This document shows, in pieces, positions 8,312 to 23,000 of a stretch of 64,000 nt of DNA. The stretch is from NCBI RefSeq assembly GCF_019649055.1, contig NW_026570226.1:2728001-2792000 (forward strand), given 5' to 3'. The position numbers and the translations under genes were made by a program. How positions within the stretch are numbered: position 1 is the first letter of the stretch; the number at the start of each line of letters is the position of its first letter. The stretch is from Paramacrobiotus metropolitanus (lineage: Eukaryota > Tardigrada > Eutardigrada > Parachela > Macrobiotidae). A model generated the notes under the pieces. It did not search any database. It had not been told where the DNA came from and worked only from the letters and a program-made list of their open reading frames with translations.

Positions 8312-11059
8312 TTATGCCACAAAAGGCATTTCAGCAGAGAGAACATGGGCGTCTGCTTGATTGGTCGCTACAGCTGTTTCCCTTTCCTGCTTGTTCACAC
8401 TACATTCAGAATCACACATAATGTACGAATCTTTCTGTGCAGCCGGCACCAACGCTTCCATGCGACTGCGAATCACGGCAAACGGCGGGCGTTCTTCGGG
8501 AAAAATTTTCCAGCAGTCACATACAGTTTGGCGTCTGTTGGTGAATAAACGTCAGTTTAAAAGTTGCAATGACTCGCAATAACAACATCATATACATTTT
8601 CTCAGGGCAATTTTCTGGAATTTTTAACCGGTGGGCGTGTTGAAAAAAAGCCCGAAGTTGGTCATATATGATGCCGCAGGGGAATTCTTCTTGATACGGT
8701 TCTGCTCCCAGAGTGAAAATTTCCCATACCACCACTCCAAAAGACCACACATCGCTTGCGGCAGAAAATACGGCGCTATTGGGGTGCAAGCACTCGGGAG
8801 CTAGCCAACGGACTGGCAGGGGGACCTAAATGACAACTTCATCAATAGTTTTGGCTTTGCACAAGAACGGAAGAGAAGGCATGTTATATACTTTGTCGCG
8901 CTCCAGTGCATAGATAGGCTGGTTTCTGGCCATACCAAAATCGGCGATCTTTGCTATCTTCTTCTCATCCAGCAGCACATTGCGTGCCGCTAAGTCCCGA
9001 TGTACTATGCCCTTATTGGAGAGAAATTCCATACCACGGCTTATTTGGTAGGCAAAATGGACGAGTTCGTGTGCGATTTCGGGCGCGATCAAATGTAGAT
9101 TTAGGGAGTTCATTTGCAAATATAGCGGATTCGCCCTCAGTGTATGGAGATACGATTCCAAGGACAGGTATTTGCAGTATTCCATAACAATCATGAGTTT
9201 GCCTGAAAAGGTCATTTCGTTGCCTTGGCCGAGGAACTTCCTTGTGTGATTTTATTACGATAGTGACAAGTACCTTCAAGCCAGTAACTACAGAGTAGAA
9301 ATTTTCTAACTCCGACTCTAAATTTTCTGCTTCACCGGATTATTCGCCTTAACTCTTGTCACTTATTTACGCTAAAAATTTTCATTATACAAGTACCTTG
9401 TAAAACGATGCCTTCTAAGTTGACGATGTTTGTATGTCGCCCGACACTCATCATAAGAGCCATTTCTGACAGGAACTCACGTGTTGCTTGACCCTTTTGG
9501 TACAGGCAGCGCAACATCTTCACTGCCACGAGATGCGAGCTCGGTGTCATGGATGACGATCTGGCAGATCGCAGATACTTTGAATGCAACGTCCCCACGA
9601 AAACGAGGCCGTGACGGCCGCTTCCCAAGTGTTCATCCCCTAAATTACACAAAGACGGTGGAAGCTGACAACTGCTAGCATACTGCTCTTCCGCTTACTT
9701 ATCTCGATCGAATGTCGTGGTATAACGAAGCCATCGATGGTTTCCACTGGAACTGTCTTGAGGAGCTCCTTTCGATGGTCGGTAGCGCGGCAAAAGTGCT
9801 AAAAAATTGCTGAAGATGCGCCACAATGTTACAACATTCGCAAATCCCATCTGTGAGCGGCAGAAACGTTCAGACGATCAAGATGGCTGGCGTACATATA
9901 AGTCGGGAGCAAAAAATTTAGCAAAGCAACAAAGATTTTGCCACGAATTCACGTCTCAACTACTGTGCTTCAGTCCTGCGACAAAATGCCGTTTGCAAAA
10001 CTAAGACAAACGGTTTTTGGTTTCCAGACGCTCTTGTGTATTTAACACCATAACGCTTGTCTACGTATTTATCGTCTGGGTCTTTGTACATGTCATACAG
10101 AACGCGAGTTGGATTACTTTATGTCTTTCCCGCTGCTGTTTGCCTCTCCAGTAGATGCAAACGATCAGAAACAGTCCGATTAACAGCGCCAGTACTGTGC
10201 CTGCGATGAAGCCGTCACGGAACGCTACAAACAGGTAGAAACCGGCTCATTGTAGTTGGGATGATCCACTTTTCAAGATAGAAGTATTCGTACCTTGAGC
10301 TTCTTTTGGGTGGGAAGGTTGAATGGGAGGCGCTTAACAAAATGAACAGCTTTGAAATTGAATTTGATTTGATGCGCAGAGTGCAAACTTACATAACAGC
10401 AAGCTGGGCTGCATGATATAATTCTGCATGACGGGATTAATTCGATGTGTGGTGACGGTAAAGTTCTGATTGAGAAGCCCCTTGGATTTCGCGCACTGAA
10501 TAATCGCATTGGCAGCAACGGCCGCTTTATACGGCATTTTGGTAAAAAATTCCCCAGAAGGCGGATACTTCCCTATGAACGCTATTTCATAGCTGTAAGT
10601 TTCGTAAGGTAGATTCAGAACCGGTGGGGAGGTCCAGCCTCTACCTTCGAGGACCGATCCATCGTAGCCGATTAAAAAGCTATAACAAGACAAGCCAATC
10701 AAAATTTTACGGTATAACTAATATGATAACTGTTATTTTACGGTATAACTGAACTAATAACGCGACTGTTGTGTCAGTGAAAGTGCACACTGTATAAGTA
10801 TTGGTTCCTTTTCTGGCATACTGACATACTTAGAAGAAATATCAGTAAATTTATTAACATCCACATCGTGTGTCTGCATTTCCTGGGTGATCTTAGAGCA
10901 GTTCCGTGGATTGTAACAGAAGTTCCCGTTTGTATGCGTAAACACAATGGAACTAGCGGGAAAAGAAGGTTTGGCCATTTTATCCTCCAGTGCTGGACGG
11001 GCGCCCCATGACGACCGCGCGATGATGTTGACCTCAGAGCACTGGTCCATTTCGGCAGA
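8312..11059 (-). CDS. PGRP-ectodomain receptor tyrosine kinase (nine exons, 5' end missing)
   Basis: Exons (minus): 11059-10830, 10679-10393, 10332-10294, 10224-10118, 9798-9699, 9639-9397, 9202-8892, 8825-8596 and 8534-8312 (TAA). All junctions are GT-AG and phase-compatible, giving 589 residues. Residues about 1-170 are a PGRP (amidase-2 fold) domain: [18 protein letters not shown], the conserved C-x5-C disulphide pair, [19 protein letters not shown]. The catalytic cysteine and the zinc-ligand tyrosine are absent, so it probably binds rather than cleaves peptidoglycan. A proline-bearing 13-codon stalk and a membrane span ([19 protein letters not shown]) follow. The kinase has [32 protein letters not shown] and SDVWSFG, so it looks active. 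One tyrosine lies in the activation loop. The C-tail is about 50 residues. No signal-peptide exon was found. The 39-nt stalk exon and the 8595 donor (GTATAT) are the least certain parts. Confidence 0.85.
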
Positions 11060-11486
11060 CTGCAATATGGGAAAAACACTTTAAACAAACAAATATTTTT
11101 GCATTAACTGCAAAATGCACCGGTTGGGTCACTGACAGACAGGATTGCCGCTTTTGGCTTTGCAAAAATAGTCACCAATTGATCATCGCCAATCTTGAAT
11201 ATGAATTACACAATAACAGAGCCACAGAAAGGCAGCGCAGAAATCGCAGAAATCAATTGCAGCTGCAGAAAATTTGTATACCTCTTCAAATTACAATAAC
11301 CCAGATAAGGTCACTACCGAAATTTTGTAGATTTGAGGTGAACTGAACAAGATCGAGTTATACACCTCCACTTCCTGCCAAATTTTGATATTCTTTTCTT
11401 TTTTGTGTTTATCGTGACTATATAAATTGCGTCAGCCGATGATAAGCCATTGTGTCTTACCGATTCCTTATGGACCATGTTTACAC
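11060..11486. promoter_or_regulatory. Shared divergent 5' region of the two PGRP receptor genes
   Basis: About 430 bp separate the first identified exon of the minus-strand kinase from the putative signal exon of the plus-strand paralogue. Head-to-head paralogues often share control sequence. A missing signal exon of the kinase gene may also lie here. I saw no clear TATA box or kappaB-like site. Confidence 0.35.
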
Positions 11487-13161
11487 ATGGCAAAATTTGC
11501 CGATGTTTTGCTTCATGTTACGCTGTCCGCTATCGTATCTCTTTTAGGATGTGTTTCGATTGTTAAGCCAACAAGTTAGAGGTTTATTAATGACGAAGCG
11601 CAAGCGGAACCGGTAATTATGATATACATACCGGATGTTGAATATGGCGTTCAAGATAGAATATCAGTGCTTAATATTTAATGCGTCAAACATTTTTCCG
11701 ACATGAAATACGCGCACACCTACAGTGTAACTGTGTAAGGGTGCTGTAAACAGTAATTATCTTATGCGAAGGTGACAAAATGAAATGCACTGGAATAAAC
11801 ATCACCGCACGGTCTGCATGGGGCGCTCCCAGTATGAACGTTAGTATACCGTACTTGATCCATCCAGTGCGGTATATCGTGTACACGCATACCTACGGAG
11901 AAGCCTGCAACGATTTCCGAATGTGTCGCATGGTGGTAAGCGCTATCCGCGATTTCCACATGGATACTTCGTCATGGACAGCACAGACGGTTGCCAACTT
12001 TGTACCCGAAATTTTCTACAAGTAACTTTACAGTTTGGTCGCTCAGTAACATTTTAATCGAAAATACATTTCTTAATACATTTTGCTGATGGTGAATACT
12101 TTCATGCACTGCAGTTTTCTGATTGGAATGGACGGTAGTATATTCGAAGGACGAGGCTGGGACCGCAGGGCACAATTCCATCGTGATTACGATCAGAATG
12201 CTCTAGTGATCGCTTTCATCGAAAACATTTCGCTGTATGGTACGCAACGTTTTACTGCTGTGTTTCGGCTGTTTCCTGCGGCTAAAGAAAAGTGTAGTAG
12301 TAGCATGATACGTCCGGCGGTTTAGGATCATGTAGACAAGCCTTTCTTGTAGACAAACCAAACGAATATATTCAGTTACTTTAGAATACGTAACTATCAA
12401 ATTCGGCTTGAGATGATTGCAACGGGTGAAGCCATTCGAAATTTGTAATGGTGTGTTGTTACTGTTGTAGTATTGCTTTGGATCAAACTCTTGATGAACA
12501 TATCTGTACATAATTTACATTAATTATCCTGATGCAGGCGAAGGGTACAAAAAATTGACGTATGCCGCTGCTTTAGCGGCCAACGGACTGCTCAACTGCG
12601 CCATATCTTCTGGCTATTTGGATCCGGCAAACTATAACGTCATAATTAATATGCACCAGATGACTGAGAGCTACATTCTCAACCCGCAAACCATGCAGCG
12701 TAAGGATTTTGAGAGTTCTGGGGAAAGCCTTGTAATCATTATCCAGTGTATTAAATCGTTTCAGCGTTAAACGACACAAACAGTTTGCTCCCAGTCACAG
12801 AAGAGCCCGGTACATAATTTCCCCTGGGATTTTCTCCAGGCTGGCCCGCCTCTTTCTTTAAACTGTTTGTCGTTTTAGGGTTTTCTGACGGTGTGGTGGC
12901 GGGAATTGTTTTTGGCGTGGTTCTGATAATCATGCTCTTTCTTGTACTTCTGTCGCTGTTGTGGCAGTATCTGCAAACGGAAAGGATGAAGGTATGCACG
13001 TTTCATCAGGAGATATTGAAACTGACTAAATACGATTTTATTGACAGACTCTTTGCGATTACGAAGAATCAAGGCATCGAAGGAAAAGCAAGTTCTCCCG
13101 GGTGACATTGAAGATGATCTCCTTGCTTTCGGTCGTCAGCCGCGAGAGTGTGTCGGGATAA
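11487..13161 (+). CDS. Kinase-less PGRP transmembrane paralogue
   Basis: Divergent neighbour of the PGRP kinase. Exons: 11780-12021, 12115-12239, 12538-12699, 12879-12991 and 13048-13161 (TAA), all GT-AG with matching phases, giving 251 residues from the ATG at 11780. The PGRP domain shows NITARSAWGAP, VYTHTYG, a C-x5-C pair and FYNFLIGMDGSIFEGRGW. The catalytic cysteine is absent. The membrane exon (FSDGVVAGIV, then a hydrophobic run) matches the kinase gene's membrane exon in motif and in 1-to-0 phase. The last exon gives a 37-residue basic tail and a stop, with no kinase downstream. A short signal-peptide-like frame begins at an ATG at 11487 (MAKFADVLLHVTLSAIVSLL), but its splice to 11780 is unresolved. 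It may be a co-receptor, a decoy or a decayed copy. Confidence 0.75.
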
Positions 13162-13655: not shown

Positions 13656-14290
13656 ACACGAGACTCAACGCAACCCAACGCAACTTAACGCAACCCAGCG
13701 CAACCGTATGCAACTTAACGCAACTGCATGAAACTTAACGCAACTTAACGTAACCCAACGCAACTTAACGCAACTTAACGCAACCGCATGCAACTTAACG
13801 CAACTTAACGCAACTGCATGAAACTTAACGCAACTTAACGCAACCCAACGCAACTTTACGCAACCCAACGCAACTGAACGCAACAACGCAACCTGCCAAC
13901 TTACTTAATTGGCGCAACTTAACGCAGCCCAACGCAACTTAACGCAACCCAACGCAACTTAGTGCAACCCAACGCAACTCAACGCAACATGCAACCCAGC
14001 GCAACCGTATGCAACTTAACGCAACTGCATGAAACTTAACGGAACTTAACACAACCTAACGCAGCCGCATGCAACCCAACGCAACTTAACGCAACCCAAC
14101 GCAACTTAACGCAACCTCATGCAATTTAACGCAACTTGGCGCAACTGAACGCAATTCCATGCAACTCAACGTAACTCAATGCAGCTCAACGTAACTCAGT
14201 GTGACTCGACCTAGCTCACCGTAAGTTAATGCTATCAATGCGACTCAACGTAACTCAATGCAACCCAGCGCAGCTCAACAACTTAACGCA
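13656..14290 (+). repeat. Satellite array, CGCAACTTAA / CGCAACCCAA units
   Basis: Degenerate tandem array of 10-bp units (CGCAACTTAA, CGCAACCCAA, CGCAACCGCATG variants). The mirror-image array at 14824-15397 carries the complement. Open frames across it are repeat artefacts. Confidence 0.9.
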
Positions 14291-14329
14291 GATGGAATTG
14301 AATGCATGAAACTCTGAAACCTATTCTTT

Positions 14330-14580
14330 CGAGGGATTTAAACACGCAAAAAAAACTGAGAAAAAGCAAAAGGCAAAATAAAAAACCTAAAAGCATAAAA
14401 AACCTAAGAAACTTAAAAAATTTGAGAAATCTAACAAAACTTTAGGAATTCTAAGCAATCTAGGAAACCTCAGAAACCTAAGAACCCCAAGATATTAGAG
14501 AAACCTAAGAAACCTAAGAAACCTGAAAAAACCTAAGAAACCTAAGAACCCTAAAAGACCGAGAAATTAAAAAAATTTTA
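14330..14580 (+). repeat. AAACCTAAG-type repeat between the two arrays
   Basis: A-rich imperfect tandem repeat based on AAACCTAAG, lying between the two oppositely oriented satellite arrays. It resembles a degenerate telomere-like motif, but it is too irregular to call telomeric. Confidence 0.7.
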
Positions 14581-14823
14581 AAAAATGTTGTAATGGCATT
14601 CAAAGGTTAGTTCCGTCAAATACGTGACTTCGTACAGATTCCAGAGTTTTCTACTAAAAAAATTTCTTGCAGCATGTGAGCTATGCTGACTTGCGTCAAG
14701 ATGCATTTAACTGCATGGTACTGCGTTTAGTTACGCTAGGTTGCTTTGTGTTACATTGATTATTTACCTCCATGTAGTATGTAAGGTTGGGGTGCATTCA
14801 ACTATATGAAGATACATGAAATT

Positions 14824-15397
14824 ACGTAGAGTTGCGCTGGGTTGCGTGCCATTGCGTTGCGTTTCATTTCGTGGAGTTGCGTTGGGTTACATGCAGTTGC
14901 GTTGGGTTGCCTGCAGTTGCGTTGGGTTGCCTGCAGTTGCGTTGGGTTGCATGCAGTTGCGTCGGGTTGCATGCAGTTACGTTGGGTTGCATGCAGTTGC
15001 GTTGGGTTGCATGCAGTTGCGTTTGGTTGCGTGCAGTTACGTTGGATTGCATGCAGTAGCGTTCGGTTGCGTGCAGTTGCGTCGGGTTGCATGCAGTTGC
15101 GTTGGGTTGCATGCAGTTGCGTCGGGTTGCATGCAGTTACGTTGGGTTGCATGCAGTTGTGTGGGGTTGCGTGCAATTGCGTTGGGTTGCATGCAGTTGC
15201 GTTTGGTTGCGTGCAGTTGCGCCGGGTTGCATGCAGTTACGTAGGATTGTGTGCAGTTACGTTGGGTTGCATGCAGTTGCGTCGGGTTGCATGCAGTTAC
15301 GTTGGGTTGCATGCAGTTGCGTTGGGTTGCGTGCAGTTACGTTGGGTTGCGTGGCGGTTGCGTTGGGTTACGTTGGGTTGCATAGGTTACGTTGGAC
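14824..15397 (-). repeat. Satellite array, GTTGCGTTGGGTTGCATGCA units
   Basis: About 28 copies of a 20-bp unit GTTGCGTTGGGTTGCATGCA and variants. It is the reverse complement in type of the array at 13656-14290, so the pair forms an inverted arrangement. Frames of up to 241 codons through it are artefacts of the repeat period. Confidence 0.92.
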
Positions 15398-15937: not shown

Positions 15938-18550
15938 TCAACAGTGACGTCGCAGAAAAATCAGTTGCCGCAGATCCGGTAAAGATAAGCTGAAGATTAT
16001 GGGATCGACAACGGGTTGCAGTTCGGCTAGGGTGAAAACCCAAAACATCACGATGTGATCCTGCATAGTAGCCAAAACAGGCAAAAACATGTTGGCAGGT
16101 GTCCAGCAGATGATAACACTGACGGTCAAAATCGTCAGCAGTAAAAACGTGTTGGCTTCCGGCTTTGGCTGCTGATTAACCGTCTGCGCTGGCTGTGATG
16201 ATGACGCGTCGACTGGTTGTATTTGACCACCTGTAAAGGTCGACGGAAGGATTTTTTAAAGTGTTGTGATTACTAATAGCTTAGTACCAAGCTGACGCCC
16301 TTACGAGCTATGATTGAGTCGCCGCGTGGTGTGGTACAGTTTCGCATACGGTTATTTAATTTATAAGAAAGATACAAGTATTTGTTAAGAACAGAAACGT
16401 TTCACATAGTACATCTTAAACGCTCGATAAGTTAGTGGCAGTAGACAACTGAAACGTAAGATTGCCGCACTACGAGTTTTATTACAACTCCTTATATGCA
16501 ATATTCGGTGCTTGTCTACATAATACTACAAGCACAGCCCAATAACGTAGCAGTATTATTGGGGTGGAGTACTTTATAGCAAGTAAGGATGCAGAAAATG
16601 CATGTACGCTCAAACTGTTTGTTTTAGTTCTGGTGAGTGCTGCAACATGCACGCTTTACCGGCTGTCGTACTTAAATCTGTCAAATGAACTGTGAAATAA
16701 GGTAATGCACGAAACAAAATACAAGGTATTGTACCGGCATTTCGCATTTGCCGAAGTCTTCTCAAGCGCTTCCTGCGGATGTAAAAGACCACCGGATACT
16801 GAGCCAGCACAACAAACTGGGTGGTGAACGTCAAAGCTTGATAGAAGTACAACCAGGCCTGTTGTTTCGGCGCTGTTCTGAAGTTCATCATGCAGCCGAA
16901 TATCGTTTCCGGTGGTCGGTAGATCAGCGCATCCACAAGGGCCACGGGAATCACAACTAACTGGGAGGCTGTCCAGCACAGACCACACACAACAAGAGCG
17001 ACTCGAGTGCTGTGGCGTTCACGATACCGCACTGGGTACAGCACGGCGAAGCAGCGACTAACCGCGATCGTTGTATGGATTAAATACTGGAATGTCGCCG
17101 TGGTATTCCCGATATACAGGGGTGCTACGCCAAGTTCGGGCAGTTGGATAAAATAAATCCTACAGTATTCCAGTTGGTCTTTTAGTTTTCTGTTTTGCAC
17201 TTTTCTAGTGGAACTTTTCATGGCAAATTTAATGATACCAAAATTGGATCCGTTGAGTCTGTCAGTAACGAGTTGGGCGCTTAATAACGGGGAGGAGCAG
17301 TGGGCGTTTTAGGGATGGTTATTACAGCCTTTATAATTAAAATTCCCCAAACAATATTTTTGCACGCCATTTTCTGGAAACGTTTGAGTGGTCCAACGGT
17401 GTCTTTTTTGGGTTAGGAAAAGAATCTCGCGTCATCGGTGATCGAGATTACCTCGACACAACTTGTATCTCCCATAGACTTATATGTTGTAACGTACCTA
17501 ACGAAGGATGGGGTTGCCTAGCACAGAGACTTAAGTAACTTCGAGCTGACATATTTCGTGGGTGGAACGTGGTCCACATTAAACGATTTTAACGTTTTAA
17601 TGCATATCTACTGCTGAGGTGGGGAGAGGAAAGCGCCAGATAATTGGAGGCAAAAGCTAACAAAGCGACTGGGAAAAAAAAGTTATGGTTGCCGTTTGAG
17701 TTTGCTAGACCAGCTTGTCTCTGGCAAAGTGGGTGGATTGAAGCATTTAAACTATCCCTCAGTATCCTAGAGATGAGATTTTACAAAAAACAGTCGTCGA
17801 AAACTTCACTGGGTTGCAGGGCAAGCGTGCACAAAGGGTCACTCTCCACTTTTACTATGCCCACAGTTACATCGCAAAGGTCACGTAAATTAGGTTGTAA
17901 TCGAACGATCTGAGATACATTTCGCAAGAGCCTTAAATGGCGAACACGTCAGACTTATGTATTTTGGATAAAAATGTCAACGGAATTTTTAAACAAATTA
18001 TAATTCGGAGGAAGACTCTCACGGTACATGGGTCCAACAGTATTCTAAAACTGGTCTGCTCTAGTTTCGGACGCACTGCAATTCGAAACACGCTCTTAGC
18101 GTAAGGAACGATAATCCAAAAGATGGTAGACACATACGGCAATACTATAAAATTGTAATGATTCAGTCAATTGTGATGGGTGACCTGTGGTAGATTTCGG
18201 AAAAAAGTGCCCGAACTTGGCGTAGCACCCCTGTAGATACGAAACATACACCAATTTGGACCCCAGCACCAATGCGGAAATATATTGTTGTAGATTTCCA
18301 ACGGTCCAAATGCCACTGCATATTGGAAATTGGCGTAATGAAGGGCAAAGACATATATATGAAAATTTCGGACCATGCCAAAGTTAAGAAGATAAAATAT
18401 CAGTACAGTTCCATTCAGTGCAAAAATGGCGGCAATAATGCAGACCAACAGGATACCATCAAAGGACCAGGTCAACGGATTGACAGCCGGACCGCATGAT
18501 TCAGTATAATATAGTGTGAAAATAGTACTGTTATTCGCCACGGTATTCAT
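15938..18550 (-). CDS. Rhodopsin-type GPCR, three exons, 327 aa
   Basis: Exons (minus): 18550-18250 (start ATG, N-glycosylation site NNST, TM1 and TM2), 17124-16735 (TM3 to TM5) and 16230-15938 (TM6, TM7 and TGA). Both junctions are GT-AG in phase 1. The DRY box at the end of TM3 is replaced by SRC. TM6 carries CWTP and TM7 has DPIIF in place of NPxxY. The third intracellular loop is short and glutamine/proline-rich. With only 327 residues and a very short C-tail it resembles the compact orphan receptors of invertebrate lineage-specific families. No ligand can be assigned. An acceptor-like TTTTTCAG lies 8 bases before the ATG, so a 5' non-coding exon is likely. The first intron is bounded by a 28-bp inverted repeat. 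Confidence 0.8.
17115..17142 (+). repeat. 28-bp inverted repeat, copy at the intron 3' end
   Basis: Perfect reverse complement of 18208-18235. It covers the 3' splice site and about ten bases of the second exon of the compact GPCR gene. Confidence 0.9.
18208..18235 (+). repeat. 28-bp inverted repeat, copy at the intron 5' end
   Basis: Perfect reverse complement of 17115-17142. It begins 14 bases inside the intron, just after the GTATGT donor of the compact GPCR gene. Confidence 0.9.
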
Positions 18551-20061
18551 GATTGTGAACTGAAAAACCTCTTGTAAACCAGAGATCCTAGAACTTTGGG
18601 CTTGAAAACGGAGACTTTCCTTCAAAACTGGAAATTCTGTGTTCGATGAGTATTTGGCCACTCAAAACAGGCTGCTGCTCTTTTGAATTTCCATTTTTGT
18701 TTCGTAACGTAATTAGGTTAAAAGCTTCCTGCCAAAGCTGCGCGGAATGGTTACGATAGTTTCCGAAAACCGTCATAAAAATTGCAGGGGGTGATGAAAA
18801 CGGATAAAATTAGCTTCGAGTAAATACCGTAACTCGATGATGTCTATTTAAAGAAATTCGGCGAAACTCCGCTCTTAATGCTGATTTCTAGCATCCAAGG
18901 GCCTCTTTGCTTACCACTCTTGTCGTCCGACGGACAAAAAGCTCTCCGATATATTGCAAGTGCATAAAGAGAGCTGACTACCTTTTTTCCTCGGTTTATG
19001 TAAAAGATGCAATGCCCTCGAATCTATACTCTAAAGCGCTCAAATGATAATATCTGAGAGATAATTACTCGTGCATCAGCGTTCTGCAATAGGCAGTTAA
19101 TTTTACGGCGTTATTCCGCCGTAATTATCGAATTCATTTACTATTAGGGTGCGACAAAGCGTACTGCTGTTGTGATTCCGCCGAAATTTGGCGCAAGCGA
19201 ACACTCCCTCATTTCTCGGAAAATAAGTAAATGAGTTGGTTGATTTCGTGCTAATTTCCCACCAAATTATGGAAAATGTAACATATAAGCAGCCGGGCAT
19301 TCTGTTGACTTCCGTTTAATACCTAAAACGGTATTCATGTTGCAAAGCTGAATGTAATGGCAAGGGATCGGTTCAACGATGCAGCATTTATTTCTTGCTG
19401 CTGGCTTTTTCAAGTATTTTGAATTAAACTACCGCAGATTTGATGTTCAAACGGAAAGCATTAACAGTTTTACAGTAAATTAACAGTGAAACATTAACAG
19501 TAGCTTACAGTATTACGGCAGCATGAACCGGTACACGAGGGGGTTGGCTGCACGCACAAGACGAGTTCGTAACAATACTGACTGCGCGCACGGAAAATTC
19601 ACAAAAGTCGTTTTCTTGCTATTTTTTTAACTGATCAGCTTCCTATACTATGGAGCCTAAATCGCTGAAAACCCGTAACGTTGAAATACAGAAACTGCTG
19701 TATTACGAGCAATAACCTGCTAGTTGCACGAGTGAGCAGTAGCACCAGTATCATAGGGCTGCGGTAAGATATGAGTACTGCACGGGTATCTGTGCTGTTG
19801 GAAATCAGTAGTAAATTGGAAACAACATTGGAAATCAGTAGTAAACTGTAATACCGAAAGAGCTTAACATAAGTTCGGATTTGCATTATTATTACTGAGG
19901 GTTTCATTGACTTTACGCACATTCGGCATGAACAGTACCCAATCACAGTCGGCATTATGTACAACAAGTGAAATGAATTTCCATTGCGGGTTAATTTACA
20001 CACTACTTAATTTTCCATCTGTGACACCATCACCCGGGTTTGACAAGAAACAGAAAACTGC
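18551..20061. other. Spacer between the two rhodopsin-type GPCR genes
   Basis: No supported gene. It holds short direct repeats (GGAAATCAGTAGTAAA twice near 19797-19850) and AT-rich sequence. Part of it probably holds the promoter and 5' non-coding exon of the compact GPCR. Confidence 0.35.
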
Positions 20062-23000
20062 TTATAGCATGGGAAGCTCTTCGATCGGCGTCAGCGTCAC
20101 CGAGGCGTTACCGTTGCCGTTGCTCATGGGTGAGCGTCTGTTCAATGAGCTTGACGAGGTGAACGTGTACTGCGTCCCGCAGTCCGGCCGTTTTAGACTG
20201 CCGCTGTAGTCGGTGCGGACGCTGTAGCGAAAGGTGCCGCTCCGACTGATGTTATCCCGGTTGGACGCCGGCAGCGGCCGGCAGCACAGGGCATGCTGGA
20301 ACTTGGTGCGGAATTTCGTGGACATAAAGTAGAGGACCACCGGATTGCAGGCGCTGTTCATGTACAGCATGATGCGGGCGAAGTACAGCAGTGTAAACCA
20401 GCTGGGTGCGCCCAGGGCCTCGTACCATTTTGTGTCGGCGTAGATGGTCCAGACGGACAAGATGCGGAATGGCAGTAGGCAGACGAAGAATGCTCCAACC
20501 TGGATAGAAAAGTGAAACGTTTTAGATGACACCGATCTTACTGCACGCTAACCGGTTATGAAGACTGACCAAAAGTGAAATTCAGCTGATGGCTAACGCT
20601 GTGCCAGACGTTAACTGCGCTGACCGGTTTATTGCTGCTATGACAGAGTATTGTATTCGTATTGCATCCCGGCACTGCTGCATGTGCAATAAATTTCTTC
20701 CCGCTGCTAGTCTTGCCCATCATCGCTAAACCTAAAGTATGTATTTTTGTATTCTGTACCCGTTTTACGGCTTTTCCTTTGCTAATAATAAAGTTCTAAG
20801 TTATTAATATGTACTTCGTATTTTAACGTGTTACGTGCCGCGCCAAAATTTTGCCTTGGCTGTCATTATTAAATCTGTTGTACAGAGTACATTTGTGTGA
20901 ACTGTAGCGGCCCAAGTTGCACCACGGAAAACGGCATATGCAGCGAGTGCATGCTCATGCGTTCGCATGCACGAACAGTCACACTTTACGAGTTAGTGCT
21001 GATTTCTCATACACAAAAGTCTCCTGTGCAGTTTGATCGAGCCGCTACTGTTCAACGAAGAAAAGAACTCGTATAATAAAAGAACATGTTGCCTTCATAA
21101 TTTCTGATGATTTAGAAATACTTAAGTATCCGAGTCGGACGCAAAAAAAGAACGCTGAATAGATTGGAGGACGATCGTACATAGGGTCCTCGGCAACAGA
21201 ACAACGAACGTCGGTAAGCATTCTGCCGTGATTTCATATACGCTGTTGAATTGGAGGAAGCGTAAAAGAACTGTCGCTGTTCCACAAAAACTAGTCTGTG
21301 CAAATCGTTATAAACGGCCGCCAGATTCGCACGATGAATTCGTCATTGGCGTCTCCTGATAACATCGTCCCGGCATCTTCATTATTCATGATTTATGTCA
21401 GATGGACGACAAGCAGCCGCCTTGTGCACAACATAATTATGCCCAATTACCGACCGCCACGGCCGCGTCGGTTCCTTGAAAGAAAAATGACTCGTGCGCA
21501 TCGTCCCAACATAAACTCCCTAATCTGCCCAACGCCATCAGCAGTGGCGCTCCATCTACTCAAAAACAACCGGCAGAGTTGCAATTACTCTTCGCCACCC
21601 GGAATTACCCCACCCCAGCATTCCGACCATTACTCAAGCTCTCCGCTGGCTCAGCCGAAGAAGCACCGTTTCTTCAACTTACCACCGTTGCCAACATGAT
21701 CACGACCTGCTTCCGCGCCCGCATATTCGTCGCCAAGGAGTCCGTGGTGACGCCGAGGGTCTTGTAGGAGTCCCTTATCAGGTGGTGGCTGATGAAAGCG
21801 TACAGGACGAGTAAGATGAAAAAAGGGATGACGAAGAACACCACCACCACCAGGATCATGTAGGCTTCCTTCAGTTTGGTGTCGATCGGTTGTGCACAGG
21901 ACGGCACCAAGTGGTCAAAACGACTGTGGTTTACTGTAAAAAAACCAGAGGTCATTGTTCCTTCTCAGTATAGTGAGCAGATATTACTGCGCGGTGATTA
22001 GTCCAAGCATTTAAACAACCGTCCGTAACTTTCCAGAAAGGATAGTGCTCATAATAAATTATTTTTGTAAAACGCTGTTCGAGCGAGCATTTTGAAATAT
22101 GTATTTTATATCCGATAAATTTTTAAAACTAATCATATATTTTAAATTCTTTGCGTGCTTATGGTTCTGCAAATGCCGGTATCTGTATGATGTAAAGGAA
22201 TATTCGAGGCATATATCCTTTTCTAAAAAGCGTTTGTAGGCGCATGAGCGCTTAAGTTCTTACAAGTTCTGTTTGGTTTTTTTACAGTACTTACAGACAG
22301 TTACTGTACCCTAACCCTGTACTTGAAGGAAATTTGTACGCTATGAGCGGCACGGTGCTGTATAGCCGGATAAACGAGTACAGTTTGGTATTATACCATT
22401 CATCAAGAACATTAAACCGCGTTTCAAAACTCTGTCAGAATGTTTTCTTAACAAAGACCATTAGCCATTACTCAATACGGTTGGCAGAGGTCCATGGCGG
22501 AAACTGATGTATGACGATGATTGACGCGATTGGTCGACAAGTAAGACAGAAACACGTCCATGACTGCCGCATAAGCAACCGCAGTACATACCTGAAGAGT
22601 ATGTGGGTATGAGCGCAAAGGGGATACTGGTGACGAAGGCCACGCCCCATATGACAATAATCATGGCCTGACTGCGATTGCGGCTGGCCAGATACTGGGC
22701 CTTCAGCGGATAGATGATGGCCAGGAAGCGCTCGAAACTGATGGCCAGAATCGTCAGTACTGACAGATGAGTGACGGAGTATTCCAAAAAAGGGACGGCA
22801 CGGCCTATATGATATGTCCACATAATCATATTATTCACTGTGTATATAAACATAATAATCATCAACAGCGAACCGGGCGGCGGCTCTAATAGCGCCGCTT
22901 ATTGGCTTAATGAGCTGTGTGCACGCGTGTACAAACGGGGGTTAACGCGGTCGCCGGTGACTGGCTAATTAATGTCGTGTCGAGAAGTAAACAGCAGCAG

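Follow-up and report, generated by a model that had tools for sequence, protein, structure and literature searches.

A predicted membrane receptor that joins a PGRP domain to a tyrosine kinase

The gene analysed here lies on the minus strand at 11050-8312 of a 64,000-nucleotide stretch of the Paramacrobiotus metropolitanus genome (contig C6, 2728001-2792000; hereafter the window, to which positions without a contig name refer), and it encodes a peptidoglycan-recognition protein (PGRP) domain together with a tyrosine kinase. The protein is probably a cell-surface peptidoglycan sensor signalling by its own kinase, and judging from its sequence it is likely that a single protein turns bacterial contact directly into a tyrosine-phosphorylation signal. 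Both domain families are known; their combination was not found described, and it is present in three eutardigrade genera.

A preliminary description of this DNA had proposed nine minus-strand exons joining without a phase conflict, and this was confirmed: the nine exons gave an open product of 586 amino acids with its stop at 8312, and all eight introns were of the GT-AG type. The identical exon set was obtained with a spliced aligner written by us, using the receptor protein itself as template. The joined protein reads in the order PGRP domain, stalk, one predicted membrane helix, juxtamembrane segment and tyrosine kinase. According to the spliced model and PGRP similarity, exon 1 (10830-11050) holds the start ATG and the PGRP domain's N-terminal half, including H39 (10936-10934), and exon 2 (10393-10679) holds the C-terminal half of that domain, with THRINP and no TxCPG. 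These are followed by a proline-rich stalk of 39 nt (exon 3, 10294-10332), the sole predicted transmembrane helix at about residues 188-209 with a basic flank (exon 4, 10118-10224) and a juxtamembrane segment of 100 nt (exon 5, 9699-9798); exons 3 and 5 are each equal in length in the paralogues C63b, C63c and C63d described below. The kinase is spread over exon 6 (9397-9639; N-lobe with GSGRHG, VAVK K292 and alpha-C E310), exon 7 (8892-9202; hinge and activation-loop Y430), exon 8 (8596-8825; part of the C-lobe) and exon 9 (8312-8534; kinase end, C-terminal tail and stop). The first base, previously placed at 11059, had to be corrected, as 11059 stands directly 3' of an acceptor-like TTGCAG and the first ATG is at 11050. 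An in-frame stop was found about 30 bases upstream of this ATG, so that either the protein starts there or there is an unfound upstream exon.

Of the database matches to this protein, the best came from P. metropolitanus itself, with 100% identity over 75% of the length, and the public model P0001 of this species ('receptor-like tyrosine-protein kinase kin-16 isoform X2') has identical joins as far as the activation segment. After residue 163, our model has no methionine before the glycine-rich loop, which leaves the kinase without an evident start of its own. That one gene holds the PGRP domain, the membrane span and a full tyrosine kinase, as first described, is thus supported by the joins of P0001, by paralogues and by two other genera, and on these sequence grounds the receptor gene is real with near certainty.

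A single strongly hydrophobic segment was found in the protein, and it lies between the PGRP domain and the kinase; its hydropathy peaked at residue 188 with 2.93 (19-residue window), the next best value elsewhere being 1.36. The net charge flanking this helix was +4 on the kinase side and 0 on the other side, from which, by the positive-inside rule, we infer a topology with the ectodomain outside the cell.

The kinase and PGRP domains

Pfam reported PK_Tyr_Ser-Thr in the window protein at 2.6e-71 over residues 253-537. The catalytic K, E, HRD and DFG noted in the preliminary description were all found in place (K292 in VAVK, E310 of alpha-C, HRDLAARN at 400-407 and DFG at 420-422). When the kinase part was compared with solved structures, an EGFR construct ranked first (scored as two copies), followed by FGFR1, PDGFRA, FGFR2 and VEGFR2, whose alignments cover the greater part of the kinase. 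The names that family members carry at source (FGFR-like, kita-like, kin-16) suit the kinase part only.

The Pfam check of the joined protein was less clear-cut for the ectodomain, since Amidase_2 matched at 2.7e-5 with 25.0 bits, one bit under the curated 26-bit cut-off; the related proteins P0002 (32.1 bits), P0003 (27.5), P0008 (36.8) and P0121 (33) were over it. The first 182 residues matched 26 distinct solved-structure sequences, the best being PGRP-I-alpha (1sk3; 1.6e-18), of which PGLYRP3 is presumably a synonym. Depositors had named 25 of the 26 as peptidoglycan-recognition proteins, and the remaining one, 1oht, we take to be Drosophila PGRP-LB. In a structure comparison the best 50 matches of each list were all kinases, and the PGRP part of the P0003 model was of middling confidence.

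The TxCPG motif carries the zinc-binding cysteine of amidase-active PGRPs. As had been claimed, the catalytic cysteine is missing from the window domain, in which TxCPG is absent and His39 and His152 are kept; the motif was also missing from every kinase-linked copy and partner protein aligned over that stretch. Its absence predicts a sensor rather than an amidase. Elsewhere in the genome, a PGRP model at C25 1012398-1013777 keeps the amidase motif GHRQMGNTECPG (TECPG), and it was the only match of an Amidase_2 profile search of the genome.

Paralogues and homologues in other genera

The preliminary description had missed that the receptor gene has paralogues, and that a second PGRP gene is its divergent neighbour. 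An exon-by-exon search of the 169.8-Mb P. metropolitanus genome gave 61 PGRP matches (E up to 1), and the kinase search, in which the best 111 of 617 candidates were scored, gave at least 138 matches at E up to 0.001. At 13 loci on four contigs (one on C6, four on C63, five on C89 and three on C118), PGRP and tyrosine-kinase matches were collinear on the same strand; in C118c a gap separates the PGRP part from the kinase part, and for C89c the PGRP exon search was the sole source of the first PGRP exon. The window gene, C63b, C63c and C63d have all eight intron columns and phases in common (4/4 genes compared).

Searching related genomes for the architecture revealed the same order in Ramazzottius varieornatus and Hypsibius exemplaris. 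Among the matches listed, both Pfam domains were reported in 6/217 proteins, namely five P. metropolitanus public models and R. varieornatus RvY_06101. Two H. exemplaris proteins on one contig (P0009 and P0014) have the same PGRP-kinase order in the alignment; Pfam did not report a PGRP in either, the N-terminus of P0009 matched PGRPs at 2.9e-15, and for P0014 the N-terminal PGRP was assigned by means of the alignment. With the PGRP-membrane part of P0003 as query, the matches listed were four proteins, all of P. metropolitanus, and a profile search did not list the family members P0008, P0009 and P0014; as these listings are incomplete, the absence of other phyla from them means little.

Given the tandem paralogues and the two other genera, chance or misassembly is very unlikely to be the source of the PGRP-kinase join.

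Selection and history of the family

Ratios of nonsynonymous to synonymous substitution (dN/dS) were estimated by the Nei-Gojobori method and are rough, with dS often above 1. In comparisons among C63b, C63c and C63d, dN/dS was 0.07-0.10 for the PGRP part and 0.13-0.19 for the kinase. The window kinase gave about 0.10 against C63b and C63c, with synonymous sites near saturation, and was not computable against C63d. For the PGRP part, all three comparisons with the window copy were saturated, and its dN/dS is therefore quoted for C63b, C63c and C63d alone. These estimates indicate purifying selection on the PGRP part as well as on the kinase.

In the kinase tree, 11 P. metropolitanus PGRP kinases formed one clade (97/99), and the three from Hypsibius and Ramazzottius formed a separate clade (99/94), placed weakly (87/72) beside a receptor tyrosine kinase (RTK) bearing a MAM domain and a relative. 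A tree holding all 14 PGRP kinases together gave p = 0.141 in the approximately unbiased (AU) test with JAK2 left out, and the PGRP tree did not settle the matter, with R. varieornatus beside amphioxus PGRP3 (85/79) and the H. exemplaris pair on a long branch. A single fusion origin for the 14 kinases is thus neither shown nor rejected by these sequences. The window receptor fell outside the three C63 receptors in the kinase tree (88/88); the receptor order was open in the PGRP tree.

A divergent, kinase-less partner gene

Head to head with the receptor, a PGRP-membrane gene without a kinase was found on the plus strand at 11780-13101, its tail end being uncertain. The divergent start codons are separated by a 729-bp spacer (11051-11779), a possible shared promoter. 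The PGRP domain of the partner, which matched PGRPs in the PDB at 3.9e-19, extends over exon 1 (11780-12021; ATG and N-terminal half), exon 2 (12115-12239; FLIGMDGSIFEGRGW) and exon 3 (12538-12699; domain end). A stalk (exon 4, 12765-12809; placed approximately, from a guessed template stalk), a transmembrane helix (exon 5, 12879-12991) and a short, basic, cytoplasmic tail of uncertain end (13048-13101) complete the model. No plus-strand kinase match was found within window positions 1-24000.

Such a divergent PGRP-membrane neighbour was present at all five C6 and C63 loci, once beside the degenerate C63a, with start codons 536-729 bp apart. The C63 partners lie on the minus strand at 751.2-752.3, 784.6-785.6, 789.8-791.4 and 798.2-799.2 kb; several of their tails appeared short and basic by eye, with uncertain ends, and no minus-strand kinase was found behind them in the DNA examined (about 1.1 kb for C63a and C63b). 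No divergent PGRP was seen beside the eight C89 and C118 loci. A scan of the spacers for a signal-peptide exon gave five candidate starts. Two of them overlap and lie in the window spacer, towards the partner; the other three lie towards the receptor, one in each of the C63a, C63b and C63c spacers. No conservation among the spacers was seen by eye. The C63b partner has an in-frame hydrophobic stretch upstream of its ATG, without an ATG of its own.

The partners formed one clade in the PGRP tree, in which the four C63 copies grouped to the exclusion of the window copy (87/82). The window copy is outermost here as in the kinase tree, which fits duplication of the receptor and its partner as a unit, and the divergent pairing itself suggests a receptor and a co-receptor.

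Further along the window, just downstream of the partner gene, 13663-15381 consists of tandem repeats with degenerate units of 10 and 20 bases (first ACTTAACGCA, followed by units of the GTTGCGTTGG type), and minus-strand open frames at 16610-22898 resemble, by eye, exons of seven-transmembrane (G-protein-coupled) receptors.

A second class of PGRP kinase and other tardigrade receptor kinases

On C51, PGRP-membrane exons are followed on the same strand by serine/threonine-like kinase exons in two copies (757039-759900 and 804732-807900), and a third (789230-792500) shows a PGRP domain, a span and a kinase start by eye. The C51b kinase, joined from two frames, matched Pkinase at 3.5e-30, its best solved relatives being NEK2, MAP3K2 and ULK1. 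It has HGDLKPGN and DLD where HRD and DFG are expected, so its kinase activity is doubtful. Further PGRP matches were noted on C51 near 752 kb, on C388 and on C58.

Other secreted-type domains also precede kinases of the RTK type. GH16 (beta-glucanase-type) domains were seen in P0017, P0021, P0025, P0029, P0139, P0141 and P0148 of P. metropolitanus and in P0210 of H. exemplaris, and other ectodomains were C-type lectin (P0190), astacin (P0195 and P0137), MAM (P0015) and PAN (P0076). The GH16, lectin, astacin and PAN kinases formed a separate branch in the kinase tree (93/82).

Proposed mechanism and alternative explanations

PGRP-LCx and PGRP-LCa are a receptor pair of Drosophila. In the mechanism that we propose, the PGRP domain would bind peptidoglycan fragments outside the cell, and binding would assemble receptors among themselves or with the partner that lacks a kinase. 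The kinases would then phosphorylate each other on the activation loop, for which Y430 is a candidate, and the phosphotyrosines would recruit SH2-type adaptors. By analogy with PGRP-LCx/LCa, the partner, its expression driven from the shared spacer, would most likely be a co-receptor or a decoy.

Several observations weigh against a peptidoglycan sensor that signals by its own kinase. No signal peptide was found in the window receptor model, none of the candidate starts that a simple scan gave for the window spacer was on the receptor side, and the public models of C63b and C63c likewise start beside the PGRP domain; H. exemplaris P0014 does begin, by eye, with a signal-peptide-like stretch. 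The zinc histidines are variable among relatives as well, the second being gone in near paralogues and the first replaced by Gln in the R. varieornatus and H. exemplaris domains (both by eye). Together with the lost amidase cysteine motif, this variability would suit a real PGRP-tyrosine-kinase receptor whose PGRP fold has been re-used for a non-bacterial ligand, be it a protein, a self glycan or the divergent partner, and the tandem turnover of the genes would also suit mate- or self-recognition. We consider such a ligand rather unlikely, because the PGRP domain is under purifying selection and is clearly similar to PGRPs of solved structure, several of which are known binders, and because the second, serine/threonine-like type of PGRP kinase in the genome suits microbe sensing better.

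Truncation and decay also count against the proposed sensor. P0001 ends inside the activation segment, leaving the kinase without its C-lobe, and by its letters it uses an alternative acceptor just before exon 8; a kinase-truncated receptor may thus be produced from the window locus. In-frame stops interrupt the spliced models of C63a and C118a, and C63d is without the last kinase part; with such damaged copies the cluster evidently turns over. It could be supposed that the window gene, too, is decaying or yields only a truncated kinase, the functional members being elsewhere, on C63. This is improbable, as the reading frame of the window copy is uninterrupted, every catalytic motif is in place and its kinase, as said, has a low dN/dS against C63b and C63c. 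That two neighbouring genes, a PGRP-membrane gene and a separate tyrosine kinase, were merged by an assembly or annotation join is hardly credible and was rejected, since, even though a kinase-less PGRP-membrane gene does adjoin, the same order recurs in 13 loci, the four genes compared share their introns, single proteins occur in two other genera and the kinase lacks a methionine to start from.

Beyond the proposed peptidoglycan sensor of the window, it is possible, and we put it forward tentatively, that eutardigrades have a kinase-based repertoire of innate immune receptors, a counterpart of plant receptor-kinase immunity. In it, PGRPs would have been joined to tyrosine kinases at the 13 loci and, separately, to the serine/threonine-like kinases on C51, and related RTKs would carry GH16, C-type lectin and other ectodomains. 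One PGRP-RTK subfamily would then be kept as divergent receptor/co-receptor pairs, each pair duplicating as a unit and acting as a peptidoglycan-sensing heterodimer.

Comparison with known systems

If true, the proposed sensor would offer a direct route from the bacterial cell wall to phosphotyrosine, and the tandem, paired gene families make the idea of a kinase-linked PGRP directly testable. The earlier statement that no PGRP-RTK had been described agrees with our full-text literature searches, in which none surfaced; their coverage was partial, most subscription papers being outside it. Mapalo et al. (2020, PMC7056985) reported PGRP homologues in eutardigrades except Richtersius cf. coronifer, and found Relish in none of the tardigrades and no intracellular components of Toll signalling; the portions of that survey consulted make no mention of a PGRP-linked kinase. 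Given those reported absences, a kinase-linked PGRP would supply an output for tardigrade PGRPs. In P. metropolitanus, one RHD_DNA_bind match over the cut-off (NF-kB or NFAT) was seen at C124 21443-21652, though neither Relish nor Dorsal had turned up in an earlier survey of tardigrades, and there was one TIR match. Loss of NF-kB as the reason for a kinase-linked PGRP is weakened by these two matches, and such a loss is therefore not claimed for this species.

Known animal PGRP receptors signal through adaptors to NF-kB, and PGRP-LC is the transmembrane PGRP of the Imd pathway. The window receptor resembles Drosophila PGRP-LC in being a membrane-bound PGRP, and its sequence matches 1z6i (1e-11) and 2f2l chain X (3e-11). 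Unlike PGRP-LC, a type II protein with a C-terminal PGRP domain and an N-terminal cytoplasmic adaptor motif, it has the order PGRP, transmembrane helix, kinase, with the kinase built in. Unlike FGFR, PDGFR, KIT and VEGFR, it has no immunoglobulin domain in Pfam (E up to 0.001) and carries one PGRP domain instead, and its kinase groups among tardigrade RTKs, apart from the FGFRs sampled. With the GH16, C-type lectin, MAM, astacin and PAN RTKs of the same phylum it shares an RTK-type kinase joined to a secreted-type domain, the ectodomain being different. It is also like the plant LysM receptor kinases such as CERK1, in which an ectodomain for microbial cell-wall glycans is placed on a single-pass membrane kinase; unlike these, it uses PGRP rather than LysM and a tyrosine rather than a serine/threonine kinase, and its origin is unrelated.
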